A stretch of 49,212 nucleotides of DNA, taken from positions 1 through 49,212 of the forward strand of contig PLGI01000095.1 in assembly GCA_003139775.1 (NCBI GenBank), given 5' to 3'. This DNA is from Syntrophaceae bacterium (GTDB taxonomy: Bacteria > Desulfobacterota > Syntrophia > Syntrophales > Smithellaceae). The notes under the pieces are model-generated. The model made no database searches, was not told where the DNA came from, and saw only the letters and a program-made list of their open reading frames with translations. Below, piece after piece: positions 4,829-43,572 of this stretch; the stretch's first letter is position 1, and the number at the start of each line of letters is the position of its first letter. The position numbers and the translations under genes were made by a program.

Positions 4829-4914
4829 AAAATCACCACAAAAAATCATCTTAAATTCTGAACTAATATATGCATTTAAATAGTTTTTGTCAAGACAGGT
4901 TAAATACGCGTGAT

Positions 4915-5032
4915 ATTATACCATTTCTAAATCAAAGATGATATTGAGGCGGCTAGGCGGAGGCGACGAGGCGTATTTTTGTACATACGTTGAGGAAGCC
5001 GCCGACGTAGCCAACAAAGTTAGCCAAAGACC
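4915..5032 (+). repeat. F3 MITE-like element, copy a
   Basis: TATACCATTTCTAAATCAAAGATGATATTGAGGCGG...GACGAGGCGTATTTTTGTACATACGTTGAGGAAGCCGCCGACGTAGCCAACAAAGTTAGCC, shared with other F3 copies. Confidence 0.75.
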
Positions 5033-6301: not shown

Positions 6302-7441
6302 ATGGTGCGAAAAACAGGTTTAAAAAAAGCGGCAAAAATAAAGATCGGCGTTTTATACGGCGGCAGGTCAGGCGAGCATGATGTCTCGCTTTGTTCCGCC
6401 GCTTCGGTTTTTTCCGCCTTTGATCGAAACAAATATGAAGTAAAGGCCGTAGGCATTGCCAGAGATGGCCGTTGGTATGTGCAGGACAAACCGGAAATAA
6501 TCCCGGATAAAAGTTTCGGCAATATCCTGTCTTTAAAGAAAAGCGGGAAGTGGCTCGTCAATCATTTCGAGCAAAATAATAAATTGCATCTTTATAATAT
6601 TGAAAACAAAAATGAAGAGGTTATTCTGGATGTTGTGTTTCCCTTGCTTCACGGCACATTCGGCGAGGACGGCACACTACAAGGCTTGCTGGAACTGGCA
6701 ATGGTGCCTTACGTGGGCGCGGATGTAACCGGTTCGGCTGTCGGCATGGATAAAGATATTGCCAAAAGATTGCTTAAAGAAGCGGGCGTTCCGGTCGTGC
6801 CATCTTTAACTATCAATAAACAGCAGTGGAAGGATAATCCAAAATTAATAATTAAGAACGCGCTGGATAAACTCGGACTGCCTGTTTTTATTAAACCGGT
6901 CTGCACCGGCTCTTCCGTGGGAGTCAAAAAGGTAAAGAAAAAAGAAATGTTCGCGAAGGCGATGAATTTTGCTTTTCAATTCGACACGCGTGTCATGATC
7001 GAGAAGGCCGTTGATTGCCGCGAGATTGAATGCGCCGTAATGGGAAATGATAATCCCGCCGCATCAGTATTGGGAGAAATAATTCCCCAACATGAGTTTT
7101 ATTCCTATGAGGCCAAGTATCTTGATCCCGACGGCGCCAAGCTTTTAATTCCAGCACAAATTAAAGCATCTCTTGCCGATAAAATCAGAAAGACTGCGGT
7201 TGAAGGATACATGGCACTGGGTTGTTCTTCCATGGCACGGGTTGATTTCTTCCTGGATAAGAAAACCAATAAATTTTATCTCAACGAAATAAACACGCTT
7301 CCCGGCTTCACCAGCATCAGTATGTATCCGAAACTGTGGGAAGCTACAGGACTTAAATACAGCGACCTTCTGGACAAACTTATCGCTCTGGCACTCGATC
7401 GCCACAAGAAAAAGTTAGAAATTAAAACGGAGGGGATTTAA
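6302..7441 (+). CDS. ddl: D-alanine--D-alanine ligase
   Basis: GVLYGGRSGEHDVSLCSAASV, HGTFGEDGTLQGLLE, NEINTLPGFTSISMYPKLWEATG; RBS GAGG before ATG 6302. Confidence 0.95.
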   Translation: MVRKTGLKKAAKIKIGVLYGGRSGEHDVSLCSAASVFSAFDRNKYEVKAVGIARDGRWYVQDKPEIIPDKSFGNILSLKKSGKWLVNHFEQNNKLHLYNIENKNEEVILDVVFPLLHGTFGEDGTLQGLLELAMVPYVGADVTGSAVGMDKDIAKRLLKEAGVPVVPSLTINKQQWKDNPKLIIKNALDKLGLPVFIKPVCTGSSVGVKKVKKKEMFAKAMNFAFQFDTRVMIEKAVDCREIECAVMGNDNPAASVLGEIIPQHEFYSYEAKYLDPDGAKLLIPAQIKASLADKIRKTAVEGYMALGCSSMARVDFFLDKKTNKFYLNEINTLPGFTSISMYPKLWEATGLKYSDLLDKLIALALDRHKKKLEIKTEGI

Positions 7442-7600
7442 TGAGACTTAAGTTTCAGGAACGTAGTGAACTGAAACTTGTTAGTCGTAATGAGACTAAA
7501 ACTTCAAAAGCAAAGCGCATTGAAGTTTTTTAGCCGAATTATCCAATAGCCAAAGGCTATTGGGAACTATCCCGATAATGAAGCTTATCGGGATTAGTAC
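7439..7600 (+). repeat. F1 modular palindromic element, copy iv (tandem hairpins)
   Basis: TAATGAGACTTAAGTTTCAG-GAACGTAGTGAA-CTGAAACTTGTTAGTC, second hairpin AAAACTTCAA-AAGCAAAGCGCA-TTGAAGTTTT, then CCAATAGCC/GGCTATTGG and CCCGATAA/TTATCGGG hairpins. Confidence 0.9.
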
Positions 7601-19340: not shown

Positions 19341-19428
19341 ATGATACCATTTCGATTTCAAAGGATAACGAGGCGGCAAGCCGACGACGCAGCCAACAAA
19401 GTTAGCCAAGGAAAGCGAATTGATATGA
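19341..19428 (+). repeat. F3 MITE-like element, copy b (internally deleted)
   Basis: GATACCATTTCGATTTCAAAGGATAACGAGGCGGCAAG / CCGACGACGCAGCCAACAAAGTTAGCCAAGGAAAGCGAATTGATAT, matching both ends of copy c. Confidence 0.8.
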
Positions 19429-22151: not shown

Positions 22152-22327
22152 TGTGAAACTCCAATTTAATGAAACTCAGATATTACAAGCGTAGCACAGT
22201 AATATCTGTAAGTTGAATTATCCCACGTGCGAAGCTAAGTGGGACTATATATGAGACTCCAACTTAAAAAGCGCAGCTTGCTGCGAAATGTTTCCAAAGC
22301 TTGCTTTGGGGTTCATACCCGTGATTT
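22152..22327 (+). repeat. F1 modular palindromic element, copy vi
   Basis: TGTGAAACTCCAATTTAATGAAACTCAGATATTAC-AAGCGTAGCACA-GTAATATCTG...GAATTATCCCACG...GCGCAGCTTGCTGCG...CCAAAGCTTGCTTTGGGGTTCATACCCGTGAT. Confidence 0.9.
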
Positions 22328-26230: not shown

Positions 26231-29200
26231 TTAAAGTTTTTCAATCTCCTCAATCAACTGGTTCAACTTTTTTGGTGACACAGGGTAAGGGGTTTTGAGT
26301 TCCTGCGCGAACAGAGAAACTTTGTATTCTTCAATCATCCAGAATAATTCTTCAATCATCTTCTTTTTTTCTTCTGGATAATCCACAACAATATCGTTCT
26401 TAAACCGGCTGATTTCCTGAATAGAGGTACGCGATGGCATAAAGTCGTCTGTGGCTGGTATAATCATTTGCTGTAACTGCCGGGAATAAATCAAAACTTG
26501 CTGCATTTTATTTTGCGCCGAAGTAAGATTAAGACTTCCCCGCTCGGCCCGCAGAGCAAGGGCTTTGCTATAGCGCGGTAAATCCTTCATGCGGTCAAAT
26601 GTATAAAGCTCGGGAAAATCAATAGGCACAAGGCCTTTAAGCTCTGTCTGGATGTCCTGAAGAAATTTCAACACAGGATTATTGCCGGTATTCTTTATCA
26701 TGAGTTTGTGTAGGGAAGTATGAGTATCGTCAAAGGCTTTCAATGCCGGCACTATGGAAACCAGAACATGCTGACCGTATTGCAGAATTTTAGAATTCAG
26801 GGAATCGGCATGTTGAATAAAATCTTTCTGCTTACGCCATGGTTTTAAAAATAAATCCTTTTTTACTCTGTTGATAATTGATTGCTCCAGGTGTTTGGGA
26901 TTGCCGATATTTGCCGCAATTGCTTTCATGCCGGCGTTCAGAACAACATTCTTTTTCAGTTGCTTCAGCTTGTCGGCAAAATTAATTTCATAAAGAGCCG
27001 CAACACCATGGAAATGATTGACGGCACTTTCTTGCTGATCGGAAAAGAGCCGGAGATTAATTGAATCATCAATTACATGCAGGGCCAGGTAGGCATAGCC
27101 GATAAGTCCGTGAATGCCGGTGAGAGGAATCTGCGTTGGCAATTCGCCAAAGTCCCAGCGGATGATTCCTTCTTTTTCCCAATCACAGCGTATATTATCC
27201 ATCGCCGATGTATTTATCGTGTCAGCAAGTTCTTTTTGCAGTAGATTAATGTCCCTGCTGTTTTTTATTTCTTTTCCTTTTTCATCAATCACGCTGTAGC
27301 GAACATTCAAGTGAGCCGGCAGTTTTTCCAACGCCCAGGCATCACGAGGAACTGTTACTTTGTATTTATCTTGCAGCAGTTGGCTCAAAGCCTGCGGCAA
27401 AGATTTATTTAAATATGATTTCTGCTCCAGCAATAACTGTGCAATATGGACAGGTGCGGGAAGTTTTTGTCGCAGTGATTTAGGGAGCGACTTCAATAAG
27501 TAAACGGCCTTCTCCTGCAATAATGACGGCAGATAGCGGTCGATATTTTCCGCGGCAGCCGTGGAAACAAATCCCAGGGGAACATTTACGGTTACACCAT
27601 CATCACTTTTGCCGGGTTCAAAACTATAATGGCAGGTAAAAGCAGCATCCCCGATTTTTATTTGATCGGGATATTGAGATATTTCTTCAGGATCAGGTTC
27701 ATGGGCAATCAAATCCTCTTCCCGGAAACGCAGGAATTCATCGCTGCCTTTTTCTTTAATGAGGTTCAGTAAAGACCGGATATCGGAAATCACCGGCAGC
27801 CTTTGTTCGTAAAGACGGGCGATGGTTTCTTCGTCAACAACAAGGCCGCGTTTACGCAGTTTTTCTTCCATAGTCTTTACATGATTGAATAAAGACAAAT
27901 TATGTTCCAGAAAAGGAATCCTGCGGGGAACCTCTCCGGTGACGAGGGCTTCCCGGATAAATATTGATTTGGCTTCCTCGGGATTAATTCTTTCATAAGC
28001 TACAGGTCTTTGTTCCACAATGGTCAGACCAAAAAGAGTTACTTTTTCCAGAGCGACAACTTGCCCGCGATTTTTCTCCCAATGGGCGGCAGCGTGAGTA
28101 TAGCGGCAATTATCACGTCCCAGCACCTCCAGCCACTCGCTTTTAATATTGGCAACATTGCGGGCAAAGACTCGTGAGGTCATGCTTATTTCCGCCGCCA
28201 CGATCCAACCTCCGGCGCGATTAAATAAGCCGGAACCGGGAAAAATCATTACAGATCTGCTTTTTGCCGCGTTGTAAAAGTTTTTTTCCTTTTTTTGAGC
28301 AATATTGGAAAGATAACCGCTGAGAATGCAGCGATGAATTTTATCGGAAATTTCCTGATCTATTTCTATTTTAATGTGTTTTTTACCCCGCTGCAGAAAG
28401 ACCCCGGCTCCCGCCGAGGGGTGAATACTTTCTGCCAATCGCTGGATGTCGCGTTTTGGAAAGGAGCCTCCGGCTCCTGCCGAATGGGCTCCACTTTTTG
28501 CCGTTTTGTTTTTTCCGTCGATAATGTCCAGTATTTGATGATAGATGTCACGCCATTCAATCATTCTTCTGTAGGAAAGAAAATGTTCGCGGCAGAATTT
28601 TCTCAGTTTGCCCTGCGAAGGCAGACTTTCCAGCGATCCATGATAGCGATTCCAGATATTCAGATAGGTTAAGAAGTCTGATTCGGGATGCGCAAAGAGA
28701 ACATGAGCCTTTGAGGCCTGATCAGTTTTATCATAGGGACGTTCGCGCGGGTCCTGAATACTTAACGCGGCGGCAATAACGGCAATTTCGTTTACGCATG
28801 CTTCTTTTTTAGCTTCAATCAGCATTCGGGAAACTCGGGGATCAAGAGGGAACTCGGCCATCGTCCGGCCAACTTCAGTCAGTTTATAATGATCTGCTTC
28901 GTCAAAATCATCATCTTTAGTCAGAGCGCCTAAATCACGCAAAATATCAATGCCGTCGCGGATGCTTTTTGGTTGGGGCCGGTCAATAAAGGGGAAGGAA
29001 GTGACTGAGCCGAGATTGAGGGAAAGCATCCGCAGGATAACGCCGGCCAGATTGGAACGCATTATCTCCGGCGGCGTGTAAAGAGGCTTTTGCGAGAAGT
29101 CTTCCTGGGAATATAGCCTGATGCAAATGCCGTTTTGTACCCGGCCGCAGCGTCCTTTTCTTTGTTCCGCGCTGCTAAGTGATATTGGTTTTATCGGCAG

Positions 29201-43372: not shown

Positions 43373-43443
43373 AACTTGTTTAACTCCTTAGATATTCTTA
43401 ATGGTTTCATAATACATATTTGTTCAAATATCCAGATTTTTTT

Positions 43444-43572
43444 AGTGAGTCCCAAGTTTCAGAAGCGAAGCACACTGAAATTTGATAGACGAACTATCCC
43501 CTGTGATTCGCACAGGGGGGAGTGGATACCTTTAAGTTATGAACTTCGTTTCTGAAGCTTGGGTCTCATTAA
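43444..43572. repeat. F1 element, copy ix, two inverted ends (REPIN-like)
   Basis: AGTGAGTCCCAAGTTTCAG-AAGCGAAGCACA-CTGAAATTTG...AACTTCGTTTCTGAAGCTTGGGTCTCATTA. Confidence 0.85.

Follow-up and report, generated by a model that had tools for sequence, protein, structure and literature searches.

A palindrome-associated repeat family, probably of IS200/IS605 type, with two in-frame copies in hrpA of a Syntrophaceae bacterium

Palindromic repeats within coding sequence have been known in Rickettsia since 2000, and in the literature we found no account of the mechanism by which they move. Two other systems offer points of comparison. IS608 inserts 3' of the tetranucleotide TTAC, which pairs with the guide AAAG beside the left hairpin, while its right site, TCAA, pairs with GAAT (PMC5934647). 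The palindrome-associated transposable elements (PATEs) are a group of repeats from Haloquadratum walsbyi (PMC3119063).

Here we analyze a repeat within the hrpA gene of a Syntrophaceae bacterium (GCA_003139775.1), whose genome is available as a 3.4 Mb draft in 206 contigs. The window, that is, the whole stretch of DNA that was analyzed, comprises the 49,212 nt of contig PLGI01000095.1. We consider it likely, with a probability of roughly 0.8, that the stretch at 28387-28494 is an IS200/IS605-type element, palindrome-associated and non-autonomous, which inserted in hrpA and was moved in trans by a Y1 (HUH) transposase. The original prediction, made from the letters alone, described the repeat but did not name an element type.

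Element copies in hrpA and in other genes

The original prediction placed a second, oppositely oriented copy of a repeat at 28387-28496, where a variable linker of HrpA would carry it with the reading frame preserved. Its account of the sequence and of the encoded peptide is correct. The limits of the elements in hrpA were set from the empty sites of orthologs, which confirm the start and bring the end 2 nt inwards, to 28494. Ortholog alignment bears out the presence of two in-frame copies in opposite orientations, with the copy at 29622-29732 in sense and the copy at 28387-28494 antisense (Table 1). Smithella and related MAGs supply the closest hrpA orthologs. About 75 orthologs, the nearest relative included, lack the 36-aa insert (GAHSAGAGG...FLQRG) and have only a short linker where the copy sits, which goes against the refuting case named with the prediction, a linker conserved in element-free orthologs. 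The Pfam domains of HrpA (DEAD, Helicase_C, HA2, OB_NTP_bind and DUF3418) are all intact.

Table 1. Coordinates of the element copies, their parts and the host gene in the window
Feature	Position	Strand	Basis
hrpA, ATP-dependent RNA helicase (DEAH/RHA family, DUF3418), 1391 aa; host of two in-frame insertions	26231..30406	-	ORF, Pfam, orthologs
Type II element copy, 108 nt, antisense to hrpA, in frame, 36 aa	28387..28494	+	blastn, family models, empty sites in orthologs
Target tetranucleotide TTAC, left flank of type II hrpA copy	28383..28386	+	also in empty site of L010
Left guide AAAG, immediately 5' of left hairpin	28397..28400	+	pairing as IS608 GL AAAG-TTAC (PMC5934647)
Left-end hairpin ACCCCGGCTCCCGCCGAGGGGT of type II hrpA copy	28401..28422	+	fold
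Type II outer stem GCAGAAAG (28393-28400) / CTTTCTGC (28428-28435)	28393..28435	+	fold
Right guide GGAG of type II hrpA copy	28463..28466	+	end alignment
Right-end hairpin CCTCCGGC-TCCT-GCCGAATGG of type II hrpA copy	28467..28487	+	fold, end alignment
Predicted right end / cleavage tetranucleotide CCAC	28491..28494	+	aligned copies
Type I element copy, 111 nt, sense in hrpA, in frame, 37 aa	29622..29732	-	orthologs, empty sites
Target TTAA of type I hrpA copy	29733-29736		empty site in orthologs = TTTTAATAACG
Intergenic copy upstream of hrpA, degenerate, with a decayed right end and an intact left end	30620..30735	+	
Intergenic type I element, centre broken by another palindromic repeat (about 33112-33181); target TCAA 33035-33038	33039..33220	+	

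Both hrpA copies belong to a genome-wide family. A blastn search with the 28387-28494 stretch returned 40 matches in the same genome, the best non-self match having an E-value of 1.6e-22 and 79% identity, which is far above chance similarity. A covariance model built from eight copies found 107 family places in the host genome; the 28387-28494 copy, itself one of the eight rows of the model, scores 106 bits. These places amount to about 100 full or partial copies of an interspersed element of about 110 nt. A loose regular-expression scan produced many false copies and was replaced by nhmmer. An Rfam search of the region returned nothing above the gathering score of any family.

Full-length copies have (T)CCCGC at one end and GCTCCAC at the other and, where undecayed, measure 108-111 nt, most being near 109 nt. 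Folds and the consensus structure place a hairpin close to each end, and the aligned copies, with ends CCCGC... and ...GCTCCAC, have no terminal inverted repeats. Differences at the left end split the family into three subfamilies. There, type I has GACTTGGAAT, and type III, found in one relative (G015), has GATATGAAAT. Type II has GCAGAAAG, carries a GCAGAAAG/CTTTCTGC stem and includes the 28387-28494 copy; the diverged centre with a stem of its own that had been noted for this copy is real and marks a subfamily. The nhmmer set, drawn from the host and related genomes, contains 11 full-length type II copies. Many copies carry additional palindromic modules in their centre, as at 33039-33220. 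The presence of three identical type II copies and of five near-identical type III copies in one relative suggests recent movement.

Two other kinds of repeat were seen in the window. Another palindromic family (TTAATGAGACTC...GTTAGTCGAATTATCCC) occurs at 167-228, 7438-7548, 22166-22227 and 43442-43503, as a direct-repeat family of five copies; inverted relatives lie elsewhere, one of them nested within the 33039-33220 element. A third dispersed repeat (AAGCCGACGACGCAGCCAACAAAGTTAGCC...) is present in both orientations at 4913-5030, 19344-19426 and 34870-34993. A search of the literature on Smithella repeats found nothing relevant.

The original prediction further held that either orientation of the element, and different frames, can be tolerated. 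Ortholog alignment, the genome-wide family and further in-frame cases support this, but tolerance within genes is the exception, since 27 of the 30 best host-genome copies are intergenic. Only the two hrpA copies among these 30 lie within a long reading frame; one further copy forms the end of a glycosyltransferase ORF, and in a radical SAM protein another copy makes up the C-terminal tail. The C-terminal tails of this kind come from type II copies (L103, G000:C168; L105, G000:C1; L174, G009:C167), and the glycosyltransferase tail was seen in two species.

In-frame insertions also occur in folC of G015, where the site is empty in the 16 other genomes of the genus, in a PIN_3 gene of G009, where protein matches indicate empty sites in G003, G007 and G010, and in a spermidine-synthase-like gene of the host genome, where a composite element is present and relatives are empty. 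The last gene (L262, G000:C192:537-2060) encodes a membrane protein with a 52-aa insert that is absent in relatives. Less surely, a TPR gene of G009 has an in-frame copy at its N-terminus. The coding copies are mostly antisense. Type I lengths are often not a multiple of three. The type I copies in coding sequence, four with the TPR case, all measure 111 nt; among the 35 remaining copies of types I and III, 8 have a length divisible by three (Fisher p=0.006). The count of stop-free frames, also proposed at the outset, gave a divided answer: some type II copies exceed their shuffles (five of six frames, p about 0.04; six of six, p about 0.03) and others do not, so we make no general claim of an excess of open frames.

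Target sites and the guide/target code

Empty sites could be compared at five coding insertions, namely the two in hrpA and those in folC, the spermidine-synthase-like gene and the PIN gene. At the first four, which were compared at the DNA level, there is no target duplication. The elements are inserted 3' of a tetranucleotide. On the left flank, 30 of 40 type I copies have TCAA or TTAA, 9 of 11 type II copies have TTTA or GTTA (register TTAC/TTAT), and all five type III copies have TTAA. The guide register was set for each subfamily from insertion lengths, that of type II from the net insertion of 108 nt.

A pairing rule was fitted to the two published IS608 pairs, TTAC-AAAG and TCAA-GAAT (PMC5934647). 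The four bases ahead of the left hairpin track the target: GAAT accompanies TCAA in type I, AAAG accompanies TTAC in type II, and AAAT accompanies TTAA. For TTAA the rule predicts AAAT, which is what type III carries. For the right end the rule predicts that CCAC should be read by GGAG, and GGAG with CCAC is found at 34 of 50 right ends. All three pairs, wobble allowed, are present in 40 of 47 copies (permutation mean 24, p=5e-5), and when the guide is slid by one base at most 4 of the 47 still pair. Copies from other genera, which had not been used to form the rule and whose guides and targets were read by eye before scoring, fit in 12 of 19 cases against 5.7 expected (p=2e-4). Some of these pairings are not unique: CTCC offers GGAG an alternative partner in an outer stem, and the left stem of type I can be lengthened by a T-A pair that reaches into the guide.

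The mobilizing enzyme and the inserted peptides

In the mechanism that we propose, a single-strand transposase of the Y1 (HUH) class would act in trans and bind the two subterminal hairpins. The four-base guide beside the left hairpin would pair with the target tetranucleotide, TTAC in the case of the 28387-28494 copy, and the element would be joined 3' of this target without duplicating it. HrpA would then be read through with 36 extra residues, because the copy is 108 nt long, is open in the right frame and lands in a loop of the HA2 region. We infer both the identity of the transposase and that HrpA with its inserts is produced and works.

Near the 32 Y1_Tnp loci examined, a subset of the Y1 loci in these draft genomes, there was no autonomous IS200/IS605 element or RAYT with matching ends, and the number of Y1 genes did not track element copy number. 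Y1 genes were rejected as a local source on both counts. An IS200-like TnpA gene of 144 aa (L089, G000:C135:8595-8948) is accompanied by end hairpins (ACCCCGCCC...GGGCGGGG) unlike those of the element.

The same transposase class has a relative, the RAYT (TnpA-REP), and the family could be a REP/BIME-type repeat moved by a RAYT rather than by an IS200/IS605 TnpA. REPs also have a conserved tetranucleotide ahead of the hairpin and a guide-like choice of cleavage site (PMC8266576), and several Y1 genes in the examined genomes are long RAYT-like ORFs. We nonetheless regard this reading as improbable: according to the published description, REPs always flank the RAYT gene (PMC2817692), yet the element is at none of the examined Y1 loci, and where a REP is a palindrome of 20-40 nt, the unit here measures about 110 nt, has two unlike ends and uses a fixed target.

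A different question is whether the inserts matter to HrpA. Site 1, which holds the type I copy, is empty in all of the approximately 75 orthologs except L012. This ortholog, from Smithella SDB_sulfate1, carries an old, diverged copy (L012:5671-5793) exactly at the window's site 1. In the hrpA tree the window sequence groups with L015 (97/92), which has no inserts; L012 falls in a different clade, whose remaining members lack its insert. At site 1, identity between the window copy and the L012 copy is 78%; other family copies match the window copy at up to 94.6%, and the two site 1 copies therefore look like independent hits. Two independent hits on one hrpA target would be the simplest reading of these comparisons, although precise loss in several lineages may account for the pattern instead. 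Horizontal transfer of hrpA was discarded as the source of a common insert, as identity between the window and L012 is not elevated around the site.

In an AlphaFold2 model covering HrpA residues 41-800, both inserts are coil with pLDDT below 50, lying between ordered elements. They are predicted to form disordered loops; low confidence is expected for homolog-free sequence, and the low pLDDT is thus weak evidence. It is very unlikely, in our estimation, that selection maintains the inserted peptide as a functional, lineage-specific extension of HrpA. Such a role would suit a gene that carries two inserts and that, in the separate lineage of L012, whose close relatives have none, has a third one at the identical nucleotide position. 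Against it, the inserts are predicted to be disordered, derive from a genome-wide repeat and are each confined to one genome, save for the site 1 insert also found in L012, where the identities given above point to independent hits. We believe that the peptide is most likely neutral baggage.

We give next to no credence to a classical MITE derived from a DDE transposon, which would likewise be short, non-coding, hairpin-rich and high in copy number, as it is already contradicted by ends that are not inverted repeats and by zero duplication at the four sequenced empty sites.

Significance and comparison with known systems

The element family joins in-frame gene insertion, empty sites and a readable guide/target code, and this combination makes the transposition class directly testable. 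Its three subfamilies with three guide/target pairs amount to a natural experiment on how single-strand transposons change target. A further, speculative reading, which we think unlikely, is that a miniature IS200/IS605-type lineage turned "gene-compatible", with 108- and 111-nt subfamilies that are open in many frames, spread in coding sequence and changed target through the guide. If true, this would offer a general route to coding palindromes such as the Rickettsia elements.

Like REP/BIME repeats and their RAYTs, the family combines high copy number with a conserved tetranucleotide beside a hairpin (PMC2817692, PMC8266576), and a transposase of the Y1 HUH class is suspected for both. It differs in its unit of about 110 nt with two distinct ends, and the Y1 loci examined include no RAYT flanked by the element. 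The Rickettsia palindromic elements (RPEs) are also palindromic repeats of about 100-150 bp that lie in frame in exposed regions of preexisting genes (PMC3767692, PMC10969869), as our copies do in hrpA, folC, the PIN gene and the spermidine-synthase-like gene. The likeness drawn here is one of behaviour in genes, and it spans two phyla; here the copies are mostly intergenic, and the target, the guide code and the missing duplication are visible.

With IS608 and the IS200/IS605 family the element shares subterminal hairpins, insertion 3' of a tetranucleotide and the guide/target pairs AAAG-TTAC and GAAT-TCAA (PMC5934647). The latter pair belongs to the right end in IS608 and to the left end here, and the element, having neither tnpA nor tnpB, could at most be a non-autonomous derivative. 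PATEs (PMC3119063) similarly lack terminal inverted repeats and target duplication, have palindromes near their ends, are too short for a transposase (108-111 nt here), often have other small repeats nested inside, and carry a targeting sequence of 4-5 nt at the 5' end (here TCAA/TTAA and TTAC/TTAT). The resemblance drawn is again in features, between a haloarchaeal element and one from the bacterial Smithellaceae, and the 32 Y1_Tnp loci from our incomplete drafts do not include an IS605-type transposon with resembling end palindromes. By its features, rather than by descent from a given transposon, we would file the element as a PATE-like, non-autonomous element of IS200/IS605 type, set apart from PATEs by several in-frame gene insertions and by subfamilies with different guide/target pairs.
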